Shown here piece after piece: positions 1 to 55,900 of a DNA stretch of 64,000 nt. The position numbers were made by a program, and so were the translations under genes. Origin of the DNA: Alentia gelatinosa (lineage: Eukaryota > Annelida > Polychaeta > Phyllodocida > Polynoidae); the NCBI GenBank assembly GCA_950022655.1, contig OX465581.1, positions 104,577,125 to 104,641,124 of the forward strand, given 5' to 3'. Position 1 is the stretch's first letter, and every line of letters begins with the position of its first letter. The notes beneath the pieces were generated by a model. The model saw nothing but the letters and a program-made list of their open reading frames with translations, had not been told where the DNA came from and did not search any database.

Positions 1-464
1 CCGTAACATTCATAAGGTCACTTGCCATAGACTTAATTACCTCCTTTCCTTTCCCGCCAACCTTTTTCAAGCCTGTACCAGCTTTTGCCTCTGGTTGTTC
101 TATTACATCCTGACTGTCTACTGCATTACTCTCAATGCCCAACTTTTCAGTGAGGCCAAACAACAAGTTCAATGCTCTGTCTAGTTTGTCAGAATTAGCT
201 TGAACTCCCTGAGATAATCTATCGTTTTCCGCTCCAGCAAAAACGATTCTCTGGACTAACTCACCTTCACCTCCCTCTCGGCCTGTCTCCACTCCCTGAG
301 CGCAGCTGTCATCAGTCAGATAAATGAAATTGTCCAATTCAATAGCCTTAAAGTCAAGAAATTCATAAGCCTTTTCTAAATCTCGTCCTGCAAAACTGCA
401 TTGTATTTTAGCTGCCACCAACAACTTGCATGGGGAAGGTACCCTTGGCCAGTGCACATACATG
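1..464 (-). CDS. Unassigned ORF, open at the left window edge
   Basis: This minus-strand frame is open from an ATG at 464 to the first base of the window with no stop, about 154 codons, so the C-terminus is outside. I do not recognise the protein. The start region reads MYVHWPRVPSPCKLLVAAK. Further on there is an acidic, hydrophilic stretch and a short segment with a heptad-like hydrophobic pattern (around RLSQGVQANSDKLDRALNLL), which could form a coiled coil. The last visible part is lysine- and glycine-rich. Composition and the nearby retroelement make a Gag-like or other transposon protein possible, but an exon of a host gene fits equally well. An in-frame stop lies just upstream of the ATG. 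No splice sites were confirmed. Existence is supported only by length and lack of stops. Confidence 0.3.
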
Positions 465-886
465 TATGCACCTCACTAGTCTACGGCCTGCCATCATAAC
501 GACTGGGTAGCTCCGTAGGGTTGGAGTGGTGCGTTGTGGTGGAAAGTGAGGTCGAGGATCCTCCGCTTCGCCCCACAATTTCTTTTTGATCATTTCTTTT
601 ATTACTGTCATTTTTCAGGTACACAAAATTGACAAGTACAAAGTATTTGTATAATCGGTGATGACAGTGAAATAAAAGGGGCCTTTTTTGCGTCAGTTTG
701 TTAACAGCTGGTTTTCATCGCTTAGGCCAAGCCATTACGAAGATCAACACAATCGTTTGCATATCACATATCAGAATTACGTAACTACATGATATGAAGA
801 GTAACCTCCAAGAACTTGCCATGGCCAATCATAATCATCGTTTACATAGCGAAGGTTTGTAGGTTGAGATACTGCGTATATGTGTG

Positions 887-888
<2 letters not shown>
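465..888. other. Intergenic stretch, nothing recognised
   Basis: The stretch contains a 67-codon minus-strand ORF in another frame than the left-edge ORF, but no motif or splice structure that I can support. It leads into the TA microsatellite. Confidence 0.4.
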
Positions 889-948
<60 letters not shown>

Positions 949-968
949 ATATATATATATATATATAT
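889..968. repeat. (TA)n microsatellite
   Basis: About 80 bp of nearly pure alternating A/T, interrupted near 945 by 'cata'. It produces spurious IYIYIY open frames on both strands. Confidence 0.95.
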
Positions 969-1110
969 GTGGGCATTTAACGACACAATACTTCTTTCTG
1001 CTCACAGATGTCGCCTCCATTTTGGATTGCTTGACCTGCCACCTTCCTTGCCGTTTATACTTCAATAAATCCCTTGTGGGATCTCATATAAACATATATA
1101 TATATATATA

Positions 1111-1191
1111 TTACGGCTAACGGTCTGTAATAAATAGTGATAAATAACATGAGACAGGAAATTGGTTTGGCGGAAATATAGACAACACCAG
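1111..1191 (-). repeat. Split direct repeat copy B2 (3' end of element)
   Basis: 81 bp identical by eye to B1, ending directly against a TA run at 1095-1110. It defines the 3' end of the element. Confidence 0.9.
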
Positions 1192-1192
1192 G

Positions 1193-1198
1193 TTTATT
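1193..1198 (-). promoter_or_regulatory. AATAAA polyadenylation signal of the retrotransposon
   Basis: A minus-strand AATAAA sits in the 12-bp spacer between A2 and B2. Cleavage within B2 would give an RNA carrying B1 and A2 complete, as the split-repeat replication model needs. Confidence 0.5.
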
Positions 1199-1203
1199 AA
1201 GTA

Positions 1204-1408
1204 AAAATTAAAACTATTTCCCAACACAAGGAAACGTCTTATACCTACAGGTTGAAAGGCGCAACTGACCCAGGAAAGAACCCGGTGACGTAACCGCACG
1301 CGGCGGGTACATGGCAACCCGAGAGTCTATAGTAACGAACCGGGATACCGTTGTTAGGTAACATGGACCTGGCCGGAATTATATAATTATAGTGTATAAT
1401 AGTACATA
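1204..1408 (-). repeat. Split direct repeat copy A2
   Basis: 205 bp matching A1 over its whole length. It lies between B1 and B2. The two bases at 1409-1410 separate it from B1 and would be the remnant of the circle junction. The 66-codon ORF at 1117-1317 is just the A leader running into B2 and is not a gene. Confidence 0.9.
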
Positions 1409-1410
1409 AG

Positions 1411-1491
1411 TTACGGCTAACGGTCTGTAATAAATAGTGATAAATAACATGAGACAGGAAATTGGTTTGGCGGAAATATAGACAACACCAG
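1411..1491 (-). repeat. Split direct repeat copy B1
   Basis: 81 bp beginning (minus strand) CTGGTGTTGTC and ending CGTTAGCCGTAA, just 3' of the recombinase ORF. It is identical by eye to B2. Confidence 0.9.
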
Positions 1492-1525
1492 CCAACCACC
1501 CGCCAATAACAATTGACTTACATCA

Positions 1526-2473
1526 TTAAGACAATTCCTTAAGAAAATTCGATACAGATAAGTCTTTCTCAAGAATCACAGATACAGTATCATGAATATA
1601 ATTCTCGACCACCTTTGACTTCCAGTGTCCCCGTTTCTGGATATCATTCAGGGATAATCCCACTCTGGAAAGGAAGGTGGCCCCACCGTGTCTGATTGAA
1701 TGTGTGGAGACACGTGACTCATCTAGGCCGATTTTTGAGGCCAAAAATTTCAGTTTTGAATTAAAACTCTGATAATTCAGCTTATACATTTTCCCTTGGG
1801 ATTCTTCCAGAAACAGGTACTGGTGAGGGAAGGATACCCTAGAGGCTAACATCCGCCTAATATTTGGAACTGGACACAAAGGAGAGCCCTGAATTTTTCC
1901 CAAATAGGTTGAAACTGGAACTTTCCCAAACTGGGAGGTTTTAGAGGACCTAATAGTCAAAAATAAATTCCCATCCGGAAAAGAAACATCAGAAACTCGG
2001 AGAGTATGATTAGAGTCTACCAAATGTGAAATCCTTAACAGTGCCCTGAAACCCAAGACAAGGGCAGACCAAAACACCAAGTCATTGTAGACTGATAAGT
2101 CCAGGAATTTGAAAATACCCAGTAGATCCTCAGGGGTTAGAGGATATTTTTCTACCAATGGAGTGGAGAACAACCTTTCAATACCTTTAACTGTTTGGGA
2201 AACCATAAAGTTGCCCACTAAGGGAGTGAAACCTAAAGATTTCTGTTGAAAGTTCACCGCAGACAAGTAATTCTTGATAGAAACTGGTTTCATTTTTTCA
2301 GACAAGAAAGACACAAATAAGGAACAACTTCTAGGAGTTGCTGGGAAAGGAGTAATTTCATAAGACTCACAAAATCTCGAGTAGCATTTTATCTGGCCCT
2401 GCCTGGTTTTCCGAGTATTTTCCGAAATCGCAGATTTCTGAAGAAACGACTGTCTCGACTCTAGAACGATCAA
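1526..2473 (-). CDS. Tyrosine recombinase (integrase) of the YR retrotransposon
   Basis: A 315-residue frame counted from TTG at 2473. It should integrate the circular DNA form of the element. An N-terminal SAM-like core-binding region (about 15-100) precedes the catalytic domain. Visible catalytic residues: R147 in ALLRISHL, K178 in RSSKTS, H258 and R261 in THSIRHG, W284 in RGHW at the second-histidine position (as in many family members), and the nucleophile Y292 in VENYIHD. Length and motif spacing match DIRS/Ngaro recombinases. The open frame extends back to a TAG near 2570 with no ATG. The first in-frame ATG is M61, inside the core-binding region, so initiation there would truncate the protein. 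A +1 (or -2) frameshift from pol, or splicing, is the likely route; this is inference. Downstream come B1, A2 and B2. Confidence 0.92.
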   Translation of the reverse strand: MIVLESRQSFLQKSAISENTRKTRQGQIKCYSRFCESYEITPFPATPRSCSLFVSFLSEKMKPVSIKNYLSAVNFQQKSLGFTPLVGNFMVSQTVKGIERLFSTPLVEKYPLTPEDLLGIFKFLDLSVYNDLVFWSALVLGFRALLRISHLVDSNHTLRVSDVSFPDGNLFLTIRSSKTSQFGKVPVSTYLGKIQGSPLCPVPNIRRMLASRVSFPHQYLFLEESQGKMYKLNYQSFNSKLKFLASKIGLDESRVSTHSIRHGGATFLSRVGLSLNDIQKRGHWKSKVVENYIHDTVSVILEKDLSVSNFLKELS

Positions 2474-4307
2474 ACTGGGGGCTGGAAGTACAACACATAT
2501 CCATTTTTGATAGTTGTTCCATACATAACGCTGAATATCCGGGTTGGGATACCCGGGACAATTGATCTGCTAGGACATTTTCTTTTGAAGGGATATAACT
2601 GGCGAAAAACTCAAAGTTAAAGAGAAAACTTATCCAGAAGAGTTCCCTAAGCCATTCCATGCATGTGCGATTTCTGCTCCTCCCAGTGTTCAGCATGGCC
2701 AAAACTTGCATGTTATCAGTCCAAATGTGAATTCTCCGATTTTTAAAATAGTTTGACCAACGTTTCACCCCTACCACCACCGGCCACAACTCCAAAACAT
2801 TGATATTTCTGGTCAATACATCGAAACCAGGTGGAGACACCTGGTGACTACAATCTGAATCAAAAACAACTTCATTATCCCAAGTACCTAGCACAAAATC
2901 CTTACCACACCATGCGCCGAACCCAGTAAACGAGGAGTCAGTGACTATCGGGACTAGGCCACAATCTTTCAGGATAATACTTTTTCCGTTAAATACTCTA
3001 ACGAGTTTCTTCCACCAAGATAAATCCTCAACGAGTTCGTCGCTCAAACCCACTCTCTTTCCTCTAGGGGTATTAGAACAAAGATCGAAAAGGCGTCTGC
3101 TAAAGGTCCTACCGCCCCTGACAACGTGGGAGCAGAACGAAATAAGCCCCCCCAGTTTCTCAAGATCCTTTTTAGTAACAAATTTCTGAGAGAAGACTTT
3201 ATCAATTTCGGTCTCTAGTTTCACCAGTTTCTCAACAGGAAGGGATATCGTCATTTCTTCCGTATTAACTTCTATACCCAAAAAAGTACAGACTCGGCTG
3301 GGAACAGTCACTTTCTCTAAAGCCACCACAAAACCAAAGTACTCTAGAACCTCGACTAGAATATCCCTGCCCCTCAAACACTCTTCTTCAGAGCTACCGA
3401 TAATCAGAAAGTCATCAAGATAATTCACTATCCTATCAACGCCCCTGCTCTTGACACACTCAACGATAAAATCAGAAATAGAATTGAATATATTCGGAGC
3501 GCACTTTAAACCAAAGCATAAACGACAGTCCTCATAAAAACTTCCACCAGTACTCGAATCCCAGAAAAATCCCTGGAACTTTGTGTGTCCCGGGAACACA
3601 TTTATCGACCTGTAGGCCGCTCTGATATCAACCACTGACAAATACTCATTGCCGATTAGATTATCGCATACGTCAGATATCGAATTATATTTGAAAGGTA
3701 CGTATGTTTCGTTCATGAAATCATTTATACATTTACCCTCAGGCCTACTACAGTCTGTAATAGGGCGTAGGCAACCGTTTGACTTTGGTACTGCTCCTAG
3801 GGCATGAACACACTGAGGCACTTCGTAGACCTCCTTCACCTTGCCCTCACGTATTTCAGTTTCTAACAAATTTGTCATTTCTTTCTGAAAATCACCCTCG
3901 GTGATCGAGGAATAATTATCACAATAATACTTTGACGAGAAGTTATTATCCACAATTCTGAAACCATCAGAAAAGCCATTCTTCAAGAACAGCCTACTAT
4001 CGATACTCATGTCGCCACAGATCAGGTCATTATCTAGGACGGGGATTAACCTACATATTTTCAGTTGTGACCTATTTTCTCCGATGTAATGAGTGCACTC
4101 ACAAATACCTCTAACACAGTCATTTGAATTTTCAACATCAACAATTAAAGATTCATCTCCTAAAGTGTCAGTGTTTACATCATAAACTAACTTTGTAGCA
4201 GTGTTAGTGTTAGCGCGGCTGACCGCTGGTTCAAATCGAGCGCGAGCGTCACCATAGTTACCAGCGTCAACAACTTGAACGCCTTCAAATCCATCGCTAT
4301 CGCTCAA
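2367..4307 (-). CDS. pol: Reverse transcriptase / RNase H (pol) of the YR retrotransposon
   Basis: A 646-residue open frame counted from a TTG at 4307; this is the beginning of the open region, not an established start. It copies element RNA into DNA. The N-terminal ~130 residues are unassigned and Cys-containing. The RT domain runs roughly 135-350, with catalytic D227 in SVVDIRAAY and D298/D299 in NYLDDFLIIG. A connection region leads to RNase H with the acidic set D457 (VTDSSF), E506 (LELWPV), D531 (IWTDN) and D581 (LADQLSR). No integrase, protease or methyltransferase is visible, as expected when a tyrosine recombinase does the integration. The frame is in phase with gag across one UGA. 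Its 3' end overlaps the recombinase frame by 107 bp in a different phase. All catalytic residues are present, so the protein is probably active if expressed. Confidence 0.92.
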   Translation of the reverse strand: MSDSDGFEGVQVVDAGNYGDARARFEPAVSRANTNTATKLVYDVNTDTLGDESLIVDVENSNDCVRGICECTHYIGENRSQLKICRLIPVLDNDLICGDMSIDSRLFLKNGFSDGFRIVDNNFSSKYYCDNYSSITEGDFQKEMTNLLETEIREGKVKEVYEVPQCVHALGAVPKSNGCLRPITDCSRPEGKCINDFMNETYVPFKYNSISDVCDNLIGNEYLSVVDIRAAYRSINVFPGHTKFQGFFWDSSTGGSFYEDCRLCFGLKCAPNIFNSISDFIVECVKSRGVDRIVNYLDDFLIIGSSEEECLRGRDILVEVLEYFGFVVALEKVTVPSRVCTFLGIEVNTEEMTISLPVEKLVKLETEIDKVFSQKFVTKKDLEKLGGLISFCSHVVRGGRTFSRRLFDLCSNTPRGKRVGLSDELVEDLSWWKKLVRVFNGKSIILKDCGLVPIVTDSSFTGFGAWCGKDFVLGTWDNEVVFDSDCSHQVSPPGFDVLTRNINVLELWPVVVGVKRWSNYFKNRRIHIWTDNMQVLAMLNTGRSRNRTCMEWLRELFWISFLFNFEFFASYIPSKENVLADQLSRVSQPGYSALCMEQLSKMDMCCTSSPQFDRSRVETVVSSEICDFGKYSENQAGPDKMLLEIL

Positions 4308-4325
4308 ACCGCTCGAGGCCTGATT

Positions 4326-4328
4326 TCA
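4326..4328 (-). other. UGA codon between in-frame gag and pol (candidate readthrough site)
   Basis: The codon series AAA-TGA-AAT-CAG ends gag. The pol frame continues in the same phase with no further stop for 652 codons. Pol has no ATG for its first 99 residues, so stop readthrough is the simplest way to make it. The flanking bases do not match the well-known CARYYA or UGA-CUA readthrough contexts. Confidence 0.6.
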
Positions 4329-5285
4329 TTTACTTGCCATAGGCTTGGCCTTCGCATTACTGCAATCATAGGCGGCGTGACTATAGCTTGAACAAGTACT
4401 ACATTGGTGTTTGTATTTGCACGCTTTAAAAGTGCAGCCCCCAGCGGTTTTATTAAAACTAAAACAAAACCCGTCTAGGCCCTTGCTCTCAGTCTTAGGT
4501 TTGGATTTCTTGGTTACTGAGGCTGCCACAGTTCCCTCGTACGATAGGAATTTAATAATTTCTGATGGATTAACCTCCGAAAAAACCCTCAAACCCTCAA
4601 TCTTAGCCTTTTCTTTGATAGCTTTGTCGTATCTTATCAATGCTTCTGCTGTGAAAAGCTTAGAATCCGCTTTTTCCGCAATAAGGATTACATGTTTTAC
4701 AAAACCTGTCACATCTTTTCCAAGGCCTAAAAGTTTTTCTAAAATCATGGCATTAACAAGGATCAGTCTTTCGTAAGTAACCAATTTGTCACCTTCATTT
4801 AGATAGTTTTTGGCATCGAAAATTGTTTTTCTACCTTTTTTCTTTTTCCTGGAATCCCTAGAAGCGCTTCTCGACGAGGAAGTATTACTGCTGCTTGTAT
4901 CAGAATAGTCACTGTGTCTGTTGGAACCCATTTTCAACATGTCCCTAGAGCGACGAGCTAACTTTGAAGACTTGAATTTATCGCTGACGATAGTCTCCGA
5001 TACCGTTTTTTCCCCTATTCCTTCCACTTTTGAAGAGACATCTACGAGTTTCTGAATAGTTGTTTCGAGCATCTTCTCCAATTTGTCCAGGCGGGTCCCA
5101 GCGATCCCTGTAGTCTCCGACCCGGTCCCTTGTGTCGCCCCCGTCTGGTCGATGGTCTCTGCTGTTGTCACAGGCTGTTGTGACTGCTGAACCTCCGGAA
5201 CAGCATTAACAGCAGTAGAGCCACCCGATATCCTTAAGTTGCCACCCTGAGCGGATTGGGCCGCAGACCCTTTCCTTCTGCCCAT
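4326..5285 (-). CDS. gag: Gag-like protein of the YR retrotransposon
   Basis: A 319-residue ORF starting at the first in-frame ATG (MGRRKGS..., 5285), immediately after repeat A1. The open frame continues upstream through A1, but only with non-AUG codons. The N-terminal third is low-complexity, rich in G, S, T and Q. It is followed by a likely coiled segment (LDKLEKMLETTIQKLVDVSS), then a Ser/Arg/Lys-rich basic stretch, and a helical domain from about residue 155. The C-terminus carries two adjacent zinc sites: C274-X9-C284-X4-C289-X3-H293 (CCCH type), then C295-X2-C298-X4-H303-X4-C308, a classical CCHC zinc knuckle. Zinc knuckles bind RNA in Gag proteins, so the inferred role is packaging the element RNA. 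The ORF ends in a single UGA, after which the same frame stays open through reverse transcriptase. Confidence 0.85.
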   Translation of the reverse strand: MGRRKGSAAQSAQGGNLRISGGSTAVNAVPEVQQSQQPVTTAETIDQTGATQGTGSETTGIAGTRLDKLEKMLETTIQKLVDVSSKVEGIGEKTVSETIVSDKFKSSKLARRSRDMLKMGSNRHSDYSDTSSSNTSSSRSASRDSRKKKKGRKTIFDAKNYLNEGDKLVTYERLILVNAMILEKLLGLGKDVTGFVKHVILIAEKADSKLFTAEALIRYDKAIKEKAKIEGLRVFSEVNPSEIIKFLSYEGTVAASVTKKSKPKTESKGLDGFCFSFNKTAGGCTFKACKYKHQCSTCSSYSHAAYDCSNAKAKPMASK

Positions 5286-5288
5286 TTC

Positions 5289-5486
5289 AAAATTAAAACT
5301 ATTTCCCAACACAAGGAAACGTCTTATACCTACAGGTTGAAAGGCGCAACTGACCCAGGAAAGAACCCGGTGACGTAACCGCACGCGGCGGGTACATGGC
5401 AACCCGAGAGTCTATAGTAACGAACCGGGATACCGTTGTTAGGTAACATGGACCTGGCCGGAATTATATAATTATAGTGTATAATA

Positions 5487-5493
<7 letters not shown>
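5289..5493 (-). repeat. Split direct repeat copy A1 (5' end of element)
   Basis: 205 bp, read on the minus strand from the TA-repeat boundary to four bases short of the gag ATG. By eye it is identical to A2 at 1204-1408. It should hold the promoter and 5' leader. An out-of-frame ATG inside it (near 5402) would make a small upstream ORF. Confidence 0.9.

Positions 5494-5540
<47 letters not shown>
5491..5540. repeat. (TA)n microsatellite flanking the retrotransposon
   Basis: About 50 bp of alternating A/T adjoining A1. A shorter TA run (1095-1110) adjoins B2, so the two are probably halves of the original target. Confidence 0.9.
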
Positions 5541-5547
<7 letters not shown>

Positions 5548-8500
5548 TTATATCAGTTATTCCTTTTCAAAAACTGTCTTCCCATTAAGTCCCATTAGAT
5601 GACGTTATGTTTTCCGCATGCTCACTGTTAACAGCCAACACAATTCAATTCTTTTGTCTAATGAATAATTACTGCCCAGAAATTATTCCAATCCAAATAC
5701 ATTTCTCGAAATGATAATAACAAAAATGCTCACATTCTGCTTTGATAAATACCCCTCACAGCAGTGTTTCCGAAAATGACAGTAAAGGTTCCAGCATTCG
5801 GAAATGTCTGCTTGATATGTTTTATGCGGACACAAATCAAATTCAACGGACTTATTGAGTAACACATATTGTTCCAGAAATGATAAAGAATATTCAATAT
5901 CGCCATGGTTTTCATTATTTGCAATTATGTTCAGAGTAATTATGGGACATATAGACAATAATATCATCCTAAATATGGAGGGTATTTACTCTGATTCTTC
6001 AGAGCAGGTAATTACGAATACGCTTACATTTCCCCGACTGTTTACCATCTGGCACAGACGTATACCATTGCCCATTACTCTGCACATCAAAGCGAGTTTT
6101 AATAAGCTGCACAGTTGGCCTATGGCAGTATGATAAAAGTATTATGGAGACAGAGCTCCGCTACTGAAACCCAAGACGAACAGTAAGAGTTTGCCAAATG
6201 GAATTCATCCAACAGAACGTCATTTGCTGGAAACAGGCCTTTATGAATCAGTAAACAGCATTCTTTCTCCCTGAGATGGACGCATGTTGTGGTGTACGTA
6301 TATGAAGGGATATCATGTTTAGATATAGATTTCGTAATGTTTTACTCCAAATGGCACATTCTGTTACGTCATGTTGTGATTATAGCATCTCAAAAGTATG
6401 ATGTTGATAGACTAGATTGTTCCTAGATAGGTTTATTATTCATATCCGTATTCTCTCTTTACTTCAGTCCTCAATGACAATAACCATATCATATACCTTC
6501 ATATATCAATATATTTCTACGCTCACTCCACAATATATATATCGCCTATGGGTGTGTGCGCTGGTTCTACAACATCGGTGAAACACTCGCACACCATATC
6601 TAGACGTCTGGGCTTTCTATAAGTAAAACTGGCTTCTCTGTGTGGAAAACGTGACCCTGTTTGCATAGCCTGCACCATGTGAAGGCGTCGGGCATGTTGC
6701 TTACTATATTCCCTACGATGTTGAATAGCCACACGACGCTGCCCCACGAGCCCCATTCACAAGTCTCGTTGTTGGCACAATTGACCGGCTGAGCAGCTCA
6801 CGCCGCGCCTTGCATAACAAAGAAAGCCGCTTTTCGCTGGAACCCAGTGTGCTCTCTGCTCGTATGGCTGGCGGGAATCTTAGCTTTCCTCAAGCATAAG
6901 GAGAGATAATAGGATGTTTTATCTTATCCGGGACGGTAATAAGAAAAAGAACCCACTCTAACACCTTTCCTTGATGCATCATGCAGATACATTTTGAGAT
7001 TCATATTCTATCAGGGAAATACATCACGATTGTATAGATGGCAATTTTGAATAATATTTCATTCATCTGATATGTAGGAGGAAGGTTATTTCTAATAACG
7101 AACATTATTTTGTGGCTACAATAAGGGATTCCGGTCAATTGCTATGAGACAGTGATAAGATCCATGTAGAGTAATGCTAAAATACGGGAGGAGGAAGGTG
7201 AAAAAGAATATATATGTGATTTTGTCTTGTTCATAAATAATGCTTGAGAGAAGATTGAATAATTCTCGATCTATGGACGATTTGCTTTCAAAATGAACAG
7301 TATGCAGCAACGTCAAGTTGAACTTATTCTTTTAGCAAATGAGCTTAGCTCTCTTTATTGTTCAAATAAAACACATGTATCATTCTTATTATTAGTAGTA
7401 TTAATCTACATGAAATAATCCGTTCAATATTCATATACCTAGTACAGCGGAAACTTCAGAAACATAAAGAGTTGATTATAGACATGAATCATTTATCATA
7501 GTATAATGATATTTGAAATGAGCTGACTAATAACTTAATTTGTATCACCTCATTTCATCATGAACAAAACTAAGGAGAAAATGGATTCTTGCACTGCAAT
7601 ATAAGAAGTCTTTACCTAAATTTTCAGGAATTCCAAATTTGATATTATAGGAATAACGGCTAGATGAAAGACTGCCAAATGGAATTCAATCATCCATTGA
7701 TCGGAGACGTTTTGACCCATATCGTACTGGACAACGTTCCATAATATCGACAAAACATCGAGATTTTAGTGGATGTGGAACTACTCCTAATTGTCCATGT
7801 CGCATTTTAGTGAGTTATGCATTGAAATTCAAATATTCTCGGCCATCTGAAACCAAACTCGCTCGCTAACAGACAGTAGGCCCTGCACAGTACCTTGTAA
7901 AACTTTACCGTTTCAGAACACAAAAACCTTTTTTCCCAGAGTATTTCAATATTAGTGTTAGTTAGGCCTTCTGCCCTGTTAGGTCCTTCAACTCCTTTCT
8001 CCTAGCACCTAGAACTTCCATACTCGACGAGAATACGTCGGACTCCATCATCTTCTCTGGATACACAGTATTGACCACAAAGGTATCTGGAAAAAATACA
8101 TGTTCATATACTTACAAAATTTAGTACAACACAATTCGTTTATTCTTTTACATATTTGATGTTATCGTATATTTTCATTAGTTATCAATTTTTACCAGTT
8201 TATGCCTGTGTGTATTCCTGTTATAATGTCGGACTCATAGTATATCTCTCCACCTTGTGTTGTACAGATAGTTCACGACGTCGTTATTCATCAACACAGG
8301 CTCAATATCTTCTAATTTCTTTCCTCGGTGTAAGCTTCCTTCAGATATTCTTAAAATCTGCATACGACCTCCCATAATATCATTTAAAATTAGTTCTGAT
8401 TAATTTTTATACTCAAATTCAACTTTTGTTTACATCTAGATTTTTTGTATATCTGTAACTTTTGAACAAAATATATTAATGTGTCGTTTTTTTGTGTTTT

Positions 8501-9264
8501 TTTTGTGTTCTATTGCCCGATCACGTATTCCTGCATCTCTTCATCGCTCATAATATCTAGTTTTTCCTCTTTTTTTTTAGGATATTCACCCTTTTGACAG
8601 CATCAGACTATTTGGGTTCATCTCGGACATCGCTGGAAGCATCGCGATATCATCTGCACCATTTGATCTCGTTTCTTTCACCAAGTAAGCCACTTCAATC
8701 GTATTTCCCTCTTCAAATCTCTTCATTGATTAAATCTACCAAATATCGTCGTCTATCGTGCTATCGCTGACGTCTGTGTGTTGTTTGGCTCCATCTTTAG
8801 CATATTTACCCCATTTTCATCAAAATTATCCCCAATATCGCGAATCAAGACTGTGGCCTATTTATGTAGTCGTAACAATCGCGTTGTCATCGTGTTAGGG
8901 GGTACTACTGAGGAACTTCTTTTTGCTCTCCAATCACAGGTACAGTATTGAAATTTAGAGACAAGTAAGCGAAACATCTGATTCAGGAGTGTATTTTCCA
9001 TATACCACAGGTTCGAGGGCCTCATACCACAGTTACAAAATCGGTATACCAAAGTATGGGTATCTGATAGTTTTTATATAATGGGTAGTGGTTTACTGAG
9101 TCCTCATTTATTCTCAATGGGGTCTTTGTATACCATGGATTATATATGACTATAAAATAATACCTCACATACACACCATTTTGTATTGGTGATTCCGGAA
9201 ATCGCTTCATTTCTCGCTCGGTGTGTCCTCAGTTTCACAGACAAGATGAGGCTATGATTCAGCT
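5541..9264. other. Intergenic, no gene recognised
   Basis: A+T-rich DNA with only short, unsupported ORFs on both strands. No splice-linked exons, RNA gene or clear transposon termini were found. Confidence 0.5.
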
Positions 9265-19960: not shown

Positions 19961-19963
19961 TTA

Positions 19964-20245
19964 GGCCCGGCGTCCACCTACTACGATATGGCACCGATAT
20001 GCCCTACGATGCACCTCCCGATACAAAATCAAAATCGCGTCGGAAGGTCACCTAATATCGGGGCAGTTGACCACGTTTCTGCGATTAGACACCGATAAAA
20101 CGCCCATGCAATGCATGGTGGATTGGCATGTCTAGACATATGTCTACGATTTTGCACCTTCCCGATATGGCACCGATTTTGAAATTTTGTATCGGTGCCA
20201 TATCGGGAGGTCTACGATTCTATCGTACTAGGTGGACGCCGGGCC
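19964..20245 (+). mobile_element. PIF/Harbinger-type MITE, copy 1 (282 bp)
   Basis: Inverted termini GGCCCGGCGTCCACCTA / TAGGTGGACGCCGGGCC with TTA duplicated on both sides (19961-19963 and 20246-20248). A 3-bp TWA target and GG-starting ends fit PIF/Harbinger. No ORF. The interior is itself partly palindromic. The same element is present inverted at 23284-23565. Confidence 0.85.
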
Positions 20246-20248
20246 TTA

Positions 20249-21283: not shown

Positions 21284-23870
21284 CAGTGAACCTGAGACTG
21301 GTGTACTTCACACCTTTGCACCAGTCATTTACTATTTCCAGCTGGGTACAAAGTTTCACAGATTGGGGTGTTCTTCAGTCTCAGGGTAACATGGCGGATT
21401 CGATTCACATGGGAAGACTTAACAGGTACATAGTCTCACCCCTACACCCCTACACACGGAACACTTGGTACACAGGGTACACAGTCGCCGACTCAGGGTA
21501 CTTCCCTGTGTGAATAGGTGTTATTTAGGACCACTGAGACTCACAGATTGGGGAGAACGTATGAAATACATTTGTCTCACCAAAATGCCCCTCTAAATGT
21601 TAAACCTGTTTGGAGTGGGATTCACACGAAGAGACTCATGTACCTGAGACTGGTGTACTTCACACCTTTTCTCTAGTCTCAGACAATTCTCGTTTGGTAA
21701 AAAATTCTCATGGCTAAGTACTTTTATCAGTCTCAAGGAAAAATGGCGAATTTGATTCACATGGGAGGACACACCTGGTACATAATCTCAGACATAGTCA
21801 CAGTGACCACTTACCTTGGGACTCAATAACCCTTGATGTGAAGGGTGTTACAAACATGTAATTATGCTTGCTGGCCTCCTATTGGCTAGGGCAGGTACAT
21901 GGTCGCAGCAGGTCCATTTGTCTCACCAAAATGTCCCTATAGATTTTAAACCTGTTTAAAGTCAAAATCTCATGAGATTCTGTTCCTTTTTAGGGGTGAT
22001 TGTCGCCGACAATTGCGAGGGAAAAAAGTTGTCTCAGCAAAATGGAACCCTGTCATTCACACGAGGAGATTGTGTTCCAGTACCAAATCTCAACAGGATT
22101 TGTCTCAGACAAACACTTTGTGAGGTACATGGATCCCACCGTGTGAATCCCATTTTATATATTCTCTAGTCTATGATACTGGAGAGCCTATGTTATACAA
22201 AAATAGTGCGTCATCTCCTACATTACAGGTTAACGAGCGGGTCCTTTAGGGAATCATAAAGAGTATCAAAAGACACCACGCAAGCTCAGCTCCAGCTGGC
22301 ATTATGATCCTGATTGAGACTAACGAGGCTATTCTCTTGTTACTGGAATGCAAAGGCAAGGTTTGTCACATCATAATAGTATTGTATGGTAGCTTTCTTT
22401 TAAAGTTTTGAGAAGTATACCTTATCATTCGCACTGAGTGATAAACAGCTTTCATCTGACATGAGCGTAGGAAGAATGCACTGTGAAGATTGACGACGAA
22501 GTGTGCTGCATGTGCTGTATGCTGTATAAATCTTACTTGATGGGGACTATATAAAATATTTTTCTTTTGATTACCTTGATGGCATAGTGACCGTGTTCCC
22601 CAGGGATTCCTGCTTAATGGTTCTACGTTTATAGAGAGAAAAAGAGCTCATTTGTCTACCTTTCGCGAGATTATTCTTCCCTATGATTAAGCCGACACTG
22701 TAGAGCCTTTCTATGTTTGAGGCATTGGGTGAAGTCTATTATTCATGATAACAGAAAATGCATATAAAGGGTGTAATAGTGATACGTGGATAGGAAATCG
22801 CTTTTCCCTTTTAGGAAATTGAGGATATCCGCCCAGATACCCTTTGTAAATTACGCTCGTCGTTATCAACCGTCTTATTCAGTGGGACTCCGCCAAGTCT
22901 ACTTATTTCCAAAAGGCAATCCTCAAATAGGCTGCTTGTGGTGAATAATTCAATACATTTTAGGGATTTCCTTGAAATTGCAAAATAGGTAATTCTAGAA
23001 GAAGGAATCAAAATCTAGTGAGATCATCTACTTCTGGTGGAGAATTTGTCTGCGACAAGCTTACCTTTACCAATCTTCAGTCTCCGGGAAATGAAACCCC
23101 GCAATTCAGATTAGGAGATTGTGTTCCAGTACAGAATCTCAGGGTAATTTGTCTCAGAGGTACATTAATCCCATCGTGTGGATTCCGCTTGAAATTTGAA
23201 AAAGAAGATATTTTAAACACGTTAAAAATATGAAGGGGGTATTTTGGTGAGACAAAGGTACCAACTTCTTAGCTGCTGACTAAGGCCCGGCGTCCACCTA
23301 CTACGATAGAATCGTAGACCTCCCGATATGGCACCGATACAAAATGTCAAAATCGGTGCCATATCGGGAAGGTGCAAAATCGTAGACATATGTCTAGACA
23401 TGCCAATTCACCACGCGTTGTATGGGGTCTTTATCGGTGTCTAATCGCAGAAACGTGGTCAACTGCCCCGATATCAGGTAACCTTCCGACGCGATTTTGA
23501 TTTTTTATCGGGAGGTGCATCGTAGACCATATCGGGGCCATATCGTAGTAGGTGGACGCCGGGCCTAAGTACCCAGCCTAGGCAATTGTAAGCCAGCAAA
23601 TAGGACCACATTTTTCACGCTGCTCATCTCAAGGGCACCTGAGTCCCGGGTGAGTGTGCACGGGGACTTTGTCTGAGACTGTGTACCAGGTGTGTCCTTC
23701 CATATGAATCCAATCGACCATTTTTTTCTTAGATTTGCAGAAGATAAAAATGGCACCCTAGCCTGCTATGAGATCGTTGTACCAAGAGAGAATAGCCTGA
23801 GACTGGGGGAAAGGTGTAAAGGTCATCCATCTCAAGGAAAATAAGTCTATATTTGTGAATCCCAAGGTTT
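21284..23870. mobile_element. Large decayed inverted-repeat (foldback-like) element
   Basis: The left arm (about 21284-22170) contains a tandem pair of ~360-bp units, each beginning CCTGAGACTGGTGTACTTCA (near 21286 and 21643) and later carrying TTGTCTCACCAAAATG. The right arm (about 22990-23870) holds related sequence in inverse orientation: for example, the block at 23670-23720 is the approximate complement of 21740-21790. Motifs GAGATTGTGTTCCAGTA and GTCTCAG recur near 22067-22110 and 23116-23157. No transposase. The MITE copy at 23284-23565 sits inside the right arm and is therefore younger. Boundaries are approximate. Confidence 0.5.
23284..23565 (-). mobile_element. PIF/Harbinger-type MITE, copy 2 (282 bp)
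   Basis: Same length and termini as copy 1 but inverted, with TAA target duplications at 23281-23283 and 23566-23568. Sequence similarity to copy 1 is high throughout. An internal sub-palindrome spans about 23310-23370. Confidence 0.85.
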
Positions 23871-30229: not shown

Positions 30230-31445
30230 ATTCCAACCCTTGGCTGAGGCAGACAATCGTAACAATATATCAATAGCATTATACATAGACATTCGAAAAG
30301 CGTTCGACTGCGTGGACCACAAGCTTCTTGTGTACAGACTGGCAGAGGCAGGAGTAGGCCCGCGACTACTAACATGTTTTATATCCTACTTAGAAAATAG
30401 GTGTTGTCACACCACGTATGGGGAAGTCCGATCAAAGAAGAAACCGGTATATTATGGTGTGCCTCAGAGCTTCATTTTGGGCCCCCGGTTATTTTATATA
30501 TATATGTAAACGACCTACCCGAATGCGTTAGCGATCAGTTTGTGCTGATGTGCTCTGATGACCTGGTCATTGTAACGAGCGGCAGGAATATACATGAAGT
30601 AGAATCAGAAATTCAACTGGCAGTAAACAAACAAGATAATTCGCATACAGCCAATAGACTGAGCATAAATACCCAGAAAACCAAACTAGTGTACCAGGGT
30701 GATAGAAACCAAACCAAACCAGAAAACAGAGGGAAAATAGAAATAAGAGGGGCTACTATAGAAACGTGTGAAGAGATTACTTACCTAGGGGCAGATGCCT
30801 ACGTACAGCGCTGAGGAAGGAGGCATATGAAGATGAGGGAATGATCGGTAATGAAACGTTATTATGTTGATGTGAAGTAATGGAACCGCATATCCGGCGA
30901 AGAATTCTCCTAGCAGGTATACTTAGAGGACTTCATAAGATAAAGGGTATCAAAGAAAAGGAAATTGATAAGAATGGGAATGTGATAAGGGGACAGTTAA
31001 AAAAGAACCTATTTCTACCAATGCCCCAAAAAGAGCGATTTAGGAAAAGTGCAGTATACTATGGAATAATGAATATTGGGAACTCCTTCGAGGAAATCAC
31101 ATACACAAGCTGTACACACCACTGCTACGTCTACCATACTTTGATACTATGGAATAATGCTCTGGAACAAGCTAGGCTTAAACATACAAACAGAATGCTC
31201 TAAGAAATTGTTCAAGATAAAGATAGGGGAAGTGCTATTGCATGATAATAACAACCGAAACTAGAAAAAATTGTGCGGGTTCCGCACTGAGCTGTACTAC
31301 TCACATATATATTCCGCTCTAAACTGCTCACCTGAGCAGTCGATTTTTAATCTTACTTCGATATATAATTAGTTGTTTTAATCTTAGACTTGTATACCTT
31401 GATGTGTAGGACTGGGGTTTGTCACAATGTATTATTGAATAAACC
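30230..31445 (+). pseudogene. Broken LINE (Jockey/CR1-group-like) reverse transcriptase
   Basis: A 5'-truncated non-LTR retrotransposon. The first piece (30240-30509) contains the RT motif DIRKAFDCVDHKLL and a degraded GVPQ(G)S.LGP block. A frameshift near 30480-30505 moves the frame, and YIYVNDLP then continues in the next ORF (30401-30814). There the catalytic motif reads SDD in place of the usual ADD (LMCSDDLVIV), followed by LSINTQKTKLV and an EITYLG box. A stop and a second frame change precede a third piece (30880-31203) holding the typical C-terminal KERFRKSAVYYG and a degraded WNSLP-type segment. The 3' part ends near an AATAAA at about 31438. Not functional. The clade is a guess from motifs; the 5' boundary and target duplication are not resolved. 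Confidence 0.8.
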
Positions 31446-46070: not shown

Positions 46071-46320
46071 GAGCTATTGGGGGGGGGGGGGGGCAGGTTC
46101 TATCAGGGTATTTGCCTGGGGGGGGGGGGGCAATTTATTTAGAGGTATTTGCCTTGGGGGGGGGGGGACATTTTATTTAGAGGTATATGCCTGGGGGGGG
46201 GGGACATTTTATTTAGAGGTATATGCCTGGGGGGCATTTCATTTCGCGGTATTTGCCTTGGGGGGGGGGGGACATTTTATTTCACTGTATTTGCCTGGCA
46301 TGGGGGGGGGGGGGCATTTC
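46071..46320 (+). repeat. G-rich minisatellite, array 1
   Basis: About six units of 30-45 bp, each with GGTAT(T/A)TGCCT, a run of 6-16 G, then CATTT.ATTT. The G runs make it strongly G-quadruplex-prone on the plus strand. Glycine-rich ORFs here are artefacts. Confidence 0.85.
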
Positions 46321-47430
46321 AATTTCAATGATTTACGGTTTTTGTGATTCACCCACATAAGAGGTTCTAGAACTGTGTATTTTGGATAATCTATACAATT
46401 TAGAGGCCAATAGTGTCTGATCTCTTCTAGCAGAATTAAGAAATTTACATATATATTATAAGTATGGAGATTGTGGCAGAGAAGACAATACTGTAACACC
46501 TTGCAGTGCCATGTCTGTGGAGTGGCAGCTCATCATACTAATACTTCTTGTAATCTGCCATGCAAGAGCTTTTCTGAGATAATGTTCATTTCAATGTTTT
46601 TCAATGATCATCTTACTAAAGCTGGCAGCAAAATTGTTGGCCTATTGAGGCAGAGACTATCACAGGGTTATTGCAGGTCCTTGTATTGTCATTTATGTCC
46701 TAAGTGATCTGTAGTTTTACCATAAAGGTACATATTTTCAACAGATAAACCCTGATAATACGACAGTTGCCTGAAGAAAATGTAAGGTAAATGACAGTTG
46801 CTGTGATGAATGACTATTTTGATGAAATTCACTCAACAAACTCCCAAATCACCGCAGTAACATTACCCATAAGATAATACCTTCAATTGCTTATTTATGA
46901 CCCTTATTTTGCTATCAGATATCCTTCATCACCATAAATACAACAAATAATTTACTATAAGAATGTATTATGTGCCTGTCAGGACGTCCTCAGGCAGCAA
47001 AACCAGGACTATTTTCCGCACAAGAAAACTGCAATGATTTTAGAGTTTGTAGGTTGTGCATGAACATGCTAAGACTATCAAAGGCAATACCACTGTTAGG
47101 AGATTGCTCCATGACCTTATGCATTGCAGCTCTACTGTATTAGTATCTGTTCTCAGCTCAATTGTCAATTCAGGTGATCGCCGTGCAATGTAACTTAGCA
47201 CATACAAGTTGTCTTCTTGGTGCCTCCACCATCTCAATAGAACATCCCCTTAAGATACGTCTCAGAGCAGCAGGTACATAAGGTCCCATGCCAGCATGTC
47301 CTGACAGGCTAAGGGTTCACTTCCCAGATGGTGGATATCTAATCCTATAACTATGATACGCCAGTTTGCAGTCATTGCTTTTAAACCATCATTAACAGTC
47401 TACATTTTTCAAGGGCCGGGAGGGGCTAAG
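46321..47430. other. Spacer between two related minisatellites
   Basis: About 1.1 kb without a supported gene. A GCCTGTCAGGAC motif at about 46976 recurs inverted near 47300. Confidence 0.4.
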
Positions 47431-47565
47431 GGAGGGGGGGGGGATGTGTATCAGGGTATTTGTCGGAGGGGGGGGGGGCATTTTATTTTGAGGTATTTCC
47501 AAGGGGGGGGGGGTATTTCATTCAGAGGTATTTCCAAGGGGGGGTGATTTATTTTGGAGGATTTG
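47431..47565 (+). repeat. G-rich minisatellite, array 2
   Basis: About four units related to array 1 and in the same orientation; both begin TATCAGGGTATTTG after a G run. Later units read GAGGTATTTCCAAGG. Confidence 0.8.
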
Positions 47566-52900: not shown

Positions 52901-55900
52901 TAGATATTCATCGATCTCCTGTGAAGTTCCTATCATTTAAAGCACATTTATTCTCATGTTGTCATGACATCAATATCATAAAGGGGATTAGACACCACTT
53001 TCATAGGACATTTCTAAATTATATGTAGGATTGACTTCATCCTACTTTATCAAATGCAGCCTTGTAGTGTCAGATTCTGATGAGTATACCTGTAAAATAG
53101 TTTGCACTAATAACAGAGTTGAAAAACTTAGATGTTGAAATATCATTTATAATAATTATTAATGATACTGATAAGCCAATAGGCTGATAGAGAATATATG
53201 ATGGTAGCCAATACAAAATATTCACTTATATACTCATAATCTCCTAGGGGCCATTCATAAAATGTCATGTGCACTGAGAGGGTAGGGGGGGGGGATTGGA
53301 GGGTCAAGGATTTAGGAAATTCTGTATATGCTCTTTCTTTGATGAATTGCATAAAAGTTTGGGAGGAGGGGTTGGAGGTTTGAAATTTCAGAAATTCTGT
53401 ATACATACTCTATAGGTGGCCCTCTACATATAACAATTCTCAAGAACCTCAATAACAGGATATCTGGTATATGTATAATGAAGGGCTGTGCATATAGTAT
53501 ATTTCATACAGCTTTGCTCCTCTGTATTTACAGGTCTGAACCGTTTTCGAAATACAGTTTATTACAGTGAAAATTCATGGTCTGAAATATATTACAGATT
53601 CAAACCGGTAGGAAAATACAGTCTAGGACAGTTATAATTTACGGTCAAAAATATATTACGGTCACCCGTACAACTTACGGTATTTCCCTGGCACCCCAGT
53701 TGCCTGGGAAATACCGTAAAATTCACGGGAAATTGTTTACAGTGTACAATTTCCTGGCGGATGATGGCAGAACCAGCAATCACTCTGTGCTCTATAGAGA
53801 AAATAAGTCGACCTAGAACTCGAACGATATGAAGTAGAATGCCCCTTTCAGCAAGTAAAATCAGACATCTAATTGAGGGAATGGATAATTCTGTTCTGAG
53901 CAGAAGTGCTCCTCTAAATAGATGCCTTTTGAAAAATAACAATCACGGGACTACATCAAACCATATATAAGCTACAGTTGTTAATGCACCACTCTGGGAT
54001 AGGTAGGACCACGCAAACCACCAAATGCAATGGCTGAGGTCTAGGCCACTTTATTGAAATACGTTATATAAGGCTTCTTATAAACAACAAAGTGTATCTA
54101 AACTTGACTCAATAAAGAAGCCTATCAACAACAAAATCTGAAAGAAAAAGATGGGGTGTCCCCTTCCACAGGATGAATCTGCAGTATCTACATTTATAGT
54201 TTATTGTAATAGATTTAAAGCGTTGCGTTGTGGATAGTAAGCCCAGGTCATAGGCGCAATGAAATGCTATGCTCCATATCTCACGGAAAGGATGTTTCAA
54301 ATATGAATTAATTTTCTATAAGTAGCATTTCTGATGGAATGTTGCTGTAGAGTCATAGTCATACATCATGACTGCTCCGCTACCAATGTTAATACAATAT
54401 TTACCTTTATGCCAGTCCTGAACTCTTTTATGTCTATATTCCAGGAACTATCCTTGTCAAACTGTTTGAAGAGGTCGACGAGTCGGAAGCCGGAATCGTC
54501 GATGTATTTGCGGAGTTTAGTTAACAGGTGGTGGTAACGCTCCTGGTCACTGAGCTTCCATTTGGAGCCTCCGCCGATCTTAATCCGGTACTTCTTGGAC
54601 ATGACCCCACCGTGTAACACCCGCAATGTTCGCACCTCCATCATCTTGGTGTGGAGATCCTCAAAGTTGTCGTCCACCATGACGCCCTGTTTTGAAAAGC
54701 AGCGTGATTGGTACGAGAGAAATTCGTAAACGTTGGACAGTAATGCCTCAGGATAAAAGACGCGTAGTCTGTGCAAAATCCAAATGGTAATCTCTTTATC
54801 AAACTTTACGACATTCACTTTCATGAGAATCTGAGACTACAATCAGATCGAACAATGGGAACACTGTTTACATGCTAAGGTAGACAACCTGTTATAAACC
54901 AACATGTTCAGAATGTATACATACGCTATAAATCTATATAAGCAAATCTACATTATTATATTCATACCCGCCTCTCGTTCAATAGCTGACTTCGTTTTTA
55001 CCATACTATATTTCTGATTGCAATTGATCAGATCATTTGCATATCTGATAATAATCCTATTATCCTCATTTCTAATTCTCTTAGGAAATTTAAAAGTTAG
55101 AAGATTCTTGCCACGGTGTCTTGGAGTGATGGTGGATTTGGACGCAATGCTACTCAAAGTACTATTATGAAAATTACTGGTAGTGCATCTAATAAGAGAA
55201 GTTGTTTCGTATCACGAAAAGCTTATATGACCTTTACAGCTATATTGTTCCCTCATCATATTACCACCGTGCTTAAAATGTTCGTCATTGCATAAAGTGA
55301 AATTTTCTTAAAGGTCAATATCTTTTGTAAACGACTGTTGAGGCTTTATGGCTTACAAAATATGCAGGAGACAAATACAACCCTCTGTAGGGAACCTATC
55401 ACGTAGCATTAACCTATCTCTCTGTATAACAGGTGTACGCCCAGTCACCCCTGATGCTATACTGTACAGAAACTAAACCGAAACACTGAACGAAACACCG
55501 AGCTGCAGAGTGAAGGCTTAATGTGCGTGCTCGTGTTTGAAGGATATTGTTTGGAGTATAGCTATTATTTATGGGATGGGCGTGCCAGGTGGTGTCCTAT
55601 GAGCGGCAGTGCCTACCTGCATGTGGAGAAAGTCCATCTCAGTGTTCTCGTTTTTACTGATGGCTGTGAGGAGAGTCATGGCTCCTACGTGGGAGATAGG
55701 GTTCCCGCCAATCTGTGATACAAAACACAAGGTGAAACATCGTCAGGGGATGTGCAAATAGGAGTGATGTGGATGGATATTCTATGTGAATGCATATAGC
55801 ATGCCATATACGAGAGAATTTATATAACATATGTGCACATACATACAATAGAACCCAGATAAATGCAGCAGTCTGTGTTCCATACTTAAGACTGATAAAG

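Follow-up and report, generated by a model that had tools for sequence, protein, structure and literature searches.

We analyzed a stretch of 64,000 nucleotides from the polynoid annelid Alentia gelatinosa (GenBank assembly GCA_950022655.1, contig OX465581.1, positions 104,577,125 to 104,641,124), which we call the window. Its first 6 kb contain a tyrosine-recombinase (YR) retrotransposon with split direct repeats, which lies on the minus strand at 5493-1111 (in window numbering, as are all positions below). Along the minus strand, the element consists of the repeat A1 (5493-5289), gag (5285-4326), pol (4325-2367), the YR open reading frame (ORF; 2569-1526), the repeat B1 (1491-1411), the dinucleotide CT, the repeat A2 (1408-1204), a 12-nt spacer (1203-1192), and the repeat B2 (1191-1111). 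The element sits within an AT microsatellite, which is visible as AT tracts on its 5' flank (5494-5553) and its 3' flank (1110-1094). An earlier note on this DNA, made from the letters alone, had described the layout A1-gag-RT/RH-YR-B1-A2-B2 (RT, reverse transcriptase; RH, RNase H) as complete, and the repeats, the ORFs, and their Pfam matches bear this out. The same note had called the repeat copies identical by eye. The alignments that it proposed gave 205 of 205 identical bases for A1 (5289-5493) and A2 (1204-1408), and 81 of 81 for B1 (1411-1491) and B2 (1111-1191). Zero mismatches over these 286 repeat bases is far beyond chance.

Encoded proteins and classification

The gag ORF encodes 319 amino acids, and its product ends in two zinc-binding-like motifs: C274-C284-C289-H293 (CCCH-like) and then C295-C298-H303-C308 (CX2CX4HX4C). 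All eight of these residues are invariant in an alignment of the window's Gag with the three relatives that we found. The structural model for Gag is poor (predicted local distance difference test, or pLDDT, of 48) and a fold search against PDB at E 0.001 gave no match, so we make no claim about a capsid fold.

The pol frame, read from stop to stop, has 652 codons (counted from the UGA that separates it from gag) and encodes RT and RNase H. Its Pfam matches are RVT_1 (2.7e-16) and RT_RNaseH (0.0026, which is below the cut-off for that family). The YR frame, also read from stop to stop, matches Phage_integrase (9.6e-12). It is in the +1 frame relative to pol and overlaps it by 203 nt (2569-2367), and its first in-frame ATG does not appear before 2293. 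Across the six elements that we read, the overlap between pol and YR spans 22 to 203 nt. (Relative to pol, YR is read in the +1 frame in the window copy and L048, but in the -1 frame in L049-L052.)

According to the earlier note, all catalytic residues are present, and reading the sequence codon by codon confirmed this. The residues that we take to be catalytic are D233 and YLDD (302-305) in RT; D463, E512, D537, and D587 in RNase H; and R179, K210, H290, R293, W316, and Y324 in YR. These residues fall in invariant alignment columns, except for R293, which is nearly invariant. The YR set is complete and corresponds to the catalytic set of Cre (R-K-H-R-W-Y). Cre is matched over both of its domains by the YR profile (3.7e-14, from sequence) and by the YR structural model (Foldseek E 2.7e-12; mean pLDDT 83), with about 20% identity. 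The description of the frames as intact and undamaged needs to be qualified: all three are open, but gag and pol are one frame split by a UGA, and neither pol nor YR has an AUG of its own.

The element is Ngaro-like, as it has split direct repeats (A1...B1-A2-B2) and no methyltransferase. It also has gag, RT/RNase H, and YR in that order on one strand, along with the full YR catalytic set. (This placement is one by layout and domain content.) Scanning all three ORFs with Pfam at E values up to 1 did not reveal the methyltransferase (Dam) domain that a PAT-like element would have; the split direct repeats would suit a PAT-like element, but Ngaro elements have them too, and they are not diagnostic. 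We did not see DIRS1-like inverted terminal repeats with an internal complementary region: the 25 longest of the 192 inverted pairs in 1-9000 are pairs of AT tracts. In VIPER-like elements, gag is followed by YR and then by RT, while here RT precedes YR. The gap between YR and B1 is only 34 bases, and there is no ORF for an SGNH hydrolase. We found no relatives in viral contigs, in bacterial or archaeal contigs, or in phages.

A conserved in-frame UGA between gag and pol

The pol frame is the same frame as gag, behind a single TGA (4328-4326), and there is no ATG before the conserved block of pol. We searched the host genome (1.23 Gb in 101 contigs) for further copies, as the earlier note had proposed, and fetched 39. 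Aligning 36 of these with the window copy gave 37 rows (L011, L021, and L047 were left out of the DNA alignment). All 35 rows that reach the junction have TGA, and the remaining two (L026 and L027) are deleted there.

The arrangement extends beyond this family. Five other elements, from four clusters, have RTs that are 52-56% identical to our query (P0001), and all five have gag, TGA, and pol in the same arrangement. Among 17 further junctions, 13 have the zinc-knuckle end of gag followed by TGA in the frame of pol, as do 11 of 12 more distant junctions (found with P0106). In total, an in-frame gag zinc knuckle is recognisable at 64 of 69 junctions, from 18 clusters, and the stop is TGA in all 64. 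(Clusters were defined at 75% identity, and because they are related by descent, they do not count as independent trials.) In all 18 cluster representatives, the 60 codons that follow the UGA are free of in-frame stops.

Two simpler accounts of the junction were ruled out. The TGA is not a mutation in one damaged copy, as the same TGA is found across the rows of the family and at the junctions of the other elements. Nor does a stop-start overlap (AUGA) at the end of gag explain pol: the frame of such an AUG is -1 relative to pol and, in the window copy, runs into a stop after 10 codons, and in L050 the sequence is AAGTGA.

An in-frame stop that is kept between two constrained frames is the pattern of elements with programmed stop-codon readthrough. 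The conserved UGA is probably best explained by programmed readthrough.

Constraint on nucleotides around the UGA

We compared the window copy to 12 others, each representing a different one of the 14 other clusters (the clusters of L026 and L027 were left out), and computed the proportions of nonsynonymous and synonymous change (pN and pS). The ratio pN/pS is 0.22 for gag, 0.15 for codons 61-652 of pol, and 0.12 for YR after the stop of pol. Synonymous change is suppressed at the UGA and 3' of it (4334-4191), and we propose that this stretch holds a recoding signal. In the 25-codon window that spans the UGA, pS is 0.042, and it stays at 0.06-0.08 for about 45 codons beyond. Over the first 60 codons after the UGA, pS is 0.13, versus 0.36 for codons 61-652 of pol. 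Most windows in gag and pol are higher (pS between about 0.14 and 0.64), and there are smaller dips at codons 24-48 (0.089), 819-843 (0.095), and 396-420 (0.121). The only lower non-overlapping window (pS of 0.005 over 25 codons) is in the pol/YR overlap (2367-2569), where two frames are read and pol has almost no synonymous change.

The dip at gag codons 24-48 (5139-5213 in the window) is near the 5' end of gag and is perhaps a packaging or replication signal.

There is a possible RNA stem 3' of the UGA (4316-4236), whose outer arms are 4316-4310 (UCGAGCG) and 4242-4236 (CGCUCGA). The outer helix hardly varies, and 98.9% of its cells are paired. The inner helix has 87.3% of its cells paired, and one pair shows a compensatory change in 4 of 25 sequences. 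Among 357 sliding windows of 110 nt, the one with the lowest folding z score (-3.1, from 40 shuffles) starts 13 nt upstream of the UGA. A match to Rfam was not found in the window.

Element ends and insertion sites

To compare ends, we used 39 independent right ends (L029 was dropped because it has the same flanks as L028) and 34 readable left ends. (L020, L021, L026, L033, and L043 were dropped because the start of A1 was not found by pattern.) Right ends read CCGTAA-CTTATA in 37 of 39 cases. One reads CTTGTA, and the window copy alone reads TATATA. As judged from the 38 other independent copies, the B repeat extends through CTTAT, which corrects its boundary. Left ends read TAT-GTAC in 33 of the 34 copies, and TAT forms the first three bases of A1. 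The internal junction of B1 and A2 reads CCGTAACTTATGTAC in 39 of 40 loci; L027 lacks it. In the window, this internal copy is at 1416-1402, and it would correspond to the junction of a circular intermediate, CCGTAACT-TAT-GTAC.

Because TAT is kept at both ends but is present only once in the junction, we interpret it as a 3-bp crossover core. That is, the junction CCGTAACT[TAT]GTAC seems to recombine at TAT.

The insertions are concentrated in alternating AT tracts. An AT run of at least 10 bases is present in 33 of 39 right flanks; of the 3714 TAT sites elsewhere in the window, 4.1% have one (p 6e-40). If the two flanks are joined, 24 of 34 copies have an AT tract of at least 20 bases, versus the background of 4.1%. 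The five other elements have AT runs at, or no more than 14 bases from, at least one end, which may be part of either the target or the element.

The loci L028 and L029 (on C1, about 69 kb apart) have the same flanks, so this insertion was probably duplicated together with its surroundings. L012 directly adjoins a short repeat in its flank (201-384), starting CAGTAGAACCCCGCG, with 1287 first-look candidates in the genome. It is probably a miniature inverted-repeat transposable element.

Age and copy number

The closest copies differ from the window copy by 4 (L009), 6 (L013), 11, and 16 of about 4383 bases. Together with the identical repeats, copies this close support the earlier note's view that the element is young. 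Among the 33 rows of at least 4300 nt, 19 have all three frames open according to the length thresholds that we set.

That note also considered elements of this kind to be much less common than long terminal repeat (LTR) elements or long interspersed elements. This may not hold in this genome: one search, with the RT of a relative, returned 11,504 first-look candidates (69 scored), and another RT search returned 10,705 (75 scored). A search with the 381-bp 3' end returned 220 (40 scored). These are counts of candidates rather than of true copies.

In the host genome, ten RT matches lie within about 123 kb (C2:20746684-20869898), with pol frames of equal length (768 codons) and near-equal scores. 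They seem to be copies of a further Ngaro-like family, arranged in a cluster or in tandem.

Other features of the window

A brief look at the rest of the window showed another RT fragment at 30401-30814 (RVT_1, 1.6e-4, below the cut-off). On the minus strand at 54366-54836, there is an open frame with a weak EF-hand match (1.3e-4, below the cut-off), which is perhaps an exon of a host gene. There are also G-rich minisatellite arrays at 46080-47544, with units of about 35-38 bases, and two inverted copies of a 288-bp sequence (19961-20248 and 23281-23568), which are 95% identical and probably represent a repeat family.

A proposed cycle

The spacer between A2 and B2 contains the poly(A) signal AATAAA (1198-1193). 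AATAAA is found at this position in 36 of 37 aligned rows and in all five of the other elements. (A second AATAAA is inside the window's gag, at 4454.) A TATA-like motif (TATATAA, at 5470) is 24 bases into A1. Given these positions, the RNA should run from within A1 to within B2, and a complete junction would be present only in the B1-A2 segment. Restoring truncated ends from an internal segment is the accepted logic of split direct repeats, and here it would have a concrete signal.

We propose the following cycle. Transcription would begin within A1 and terminate within B2, past AATAAA. Translation would yield Gag, with a fraction of ribosomes reading through the UGA into RT/RNase H, while YR would be produced from the overlapping frame. 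The internal B1-A2 segment, with its full end-to-end junction, would restore the truncated ends and give a circle with CCGTAACT-TAT-GTAC. The Cre-like YR would then swap the 3-bp TAT core with a TAT of an (AT)n tract, without duplicating the target. We put the probability that the window contains a recently inserted Ngaro-like YR retrotransposon with this cycle (readthrough, a circle, and insertion at a TAT core) at roughly 70%.

Alternative explanations

Several observations weigh against the proposed cycle. At the junction, the 60 codons after the UGA have a pN/pS of 0.84 (pN is 0.109, versus 0.053 for the remainder of pol). Constraint at the codon level is therefore weak in these codons, and it acts more on nucleotides than on codons. 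This is what one would expect of a cis-acting signal, but it does not prove translation. By plain column conservation, the junction does not stand out (0.75-0.90, versus a mean of 0.88), and the region is missing from 2 of 15 representatives. Predicted folding 3' of the UGA is strong in some cases but not in others (z from +1.6 to -2.5 across families, and z of -1.16 for a 123-nt fold). The nucleotide that follows the UGA varies (A in 10 clusters, U in 7, and C in 1), so there is no single strong context. Five of the 69 junctions lack a recognisable gag end; their last stops are TAA (L059 and L062), TGA (L063 and L064), and TAG (L074). As for the ends, the window copy breaks the rule at its own right end, as it lacks the CT after B2 that other copies have. 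The AT background is taken from this one window. The empty site that the earlier note had called for did not turn up in the one search that we made, in which a joined-flank query from L035 aligned to each flank through the end of the TAT. More broadly, expression, readthrough, the RNA ends, the circle, and the role of YR in site choice are all deduced from sequence.

Some of these observations would fit other explanations. Instead of readthrough, the synthesis of pol might depend on reinitiation, an internal ribosome entry site, a non-AUG start, or a transcript of its own driven by an internal promoter, in which case the constrained stretch would be a promoter or an entry site. The constraint on nucleotides more than codons (pS of 0.13 with pN of 0.109) fits any cis-acting signal, and 8 of 18 clusters do have an AUG among the 60 codons that follow the UGA. 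In the LTR element Tca2 of Candida albicans, a similar junction with UGA between gag and pol gave promoter activity and did not direct readthrough in yeast (from an excerpt of PMC2194720). On the other hand, the other 10 clusters lack an AUG in this stretch of 60 codons, and making pol without readthrough leaves three features unexplained: the single gag/pol frame, the use of UGA wherever that frame is recognisable, and the 60 open codons in 18 of 18 representatives. We consider this explanation unlikely, and we prefer readthrough.

The AT tracts might also be a consequence of insertion rather than its target, if any TAT(A) can serve as an insertion site and microsatellites then grow from the AT-rich ends of the element. 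Bare TAT does seem to be usable, as 6 of the 34 copies with both ends readable are at short tracts of 4-15 bases (L013, L018, L028, L031, L035, and L045). One of these is the very young L013, which differs from the window copy at 6 bases and has a tract of only 5. However, tracts of 25-72 bases already surround the other very young copies (L009, L010, and L012, with 4-16 differences), and this argues against growth after insertion, with L013 as the contrary case. We think it quite improbable that the tracts arose after insertion, and targeting of AT tracts remains our preferred reading. It is similarly doubtful that the element is a PAT-like element (of the echinoderm form) that lost its methyltransferase and not a true Ngaro. 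Excerpts of PMC4157794 report that repeat layout and methyltransferase loss are homoplasious and that the "Ngaro" of Caenorhabditis briggsae is a derived Pat1. But the ORFs have no Dam match, and none of the 120 listed relatives (of 844 RT relatives) is labelled as having a methyltransferase.

Relation to known elements

To our knowledge, the expression of pol and the choice of target have been little studied in YR retrotransposons. The integration of the element would resemble the model for DIRS1, in which a circle junction recombines at an identical 3-bp sequence without target duplication (PMC3266345). DIRS1 differs in having inverted repeats and an internal complementary region, while the window's element has split direct repeats and the core TAT. 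Closer in layout are DIRS-53_XT from Xenopus and the Ngaro elements of Cafeteria, which share A1-gag-RT/RH-YR-B1-A2-B2 and the absence of a methyltransferase (PMC9210276, PMC8547959). In DIRS-53_XT, the A repeats (236 bp) and the B repeats (152 bp) are each identical pairs, and the ORFs overlap. ORF overlaps are described as not usual in Ngaro elements by PMC3266345, but PMC9210276 describes Xenopus Ngaro families with overlapping ORFs.

Compared to DIRS-53_XT and the Cafeteria elements, the window's element lacks an SGNH hydrolase ORF, has gag and pol as one frame split by UGA, and is from a family that is mostly inserted in AT tracts. The excerpts of PMC9210276 and PMC8547959 do not mention a one-frame gag-UGA-pol arrangement, and the Cafeteria elements of types 1 and 2a instead prefer virophage DNA. 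In the open-licence literature that we searched (as excerpts, and not covering the founding Ngaro papers), we found no description of UGA readthrough or of AT-microsatellite targeting in Ngaro elements. Cre, despite the match across both domains, differs in its target, which is loxP rather than a short AT core.

Many families in one genome would have a common, testable signal for expression, and one family follows a clear rule in its choice of target. The junction sequences directly reflect the action of a Cre-like enzyme with what seems to be a 3-bp core, which is relevant to site-specific integration in animals. We lean slightly towards a broader view, in which this genome harbors a large Ngaro-like clade that makes Gag-Pol by UGA readthrough, via an RNA signal of about 150 nt, and that uses its Cre-like YR to insert into (AT)n via a TAT core. 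Such tracts would be a safe haven that may have enabled the clade to reach high copy number.

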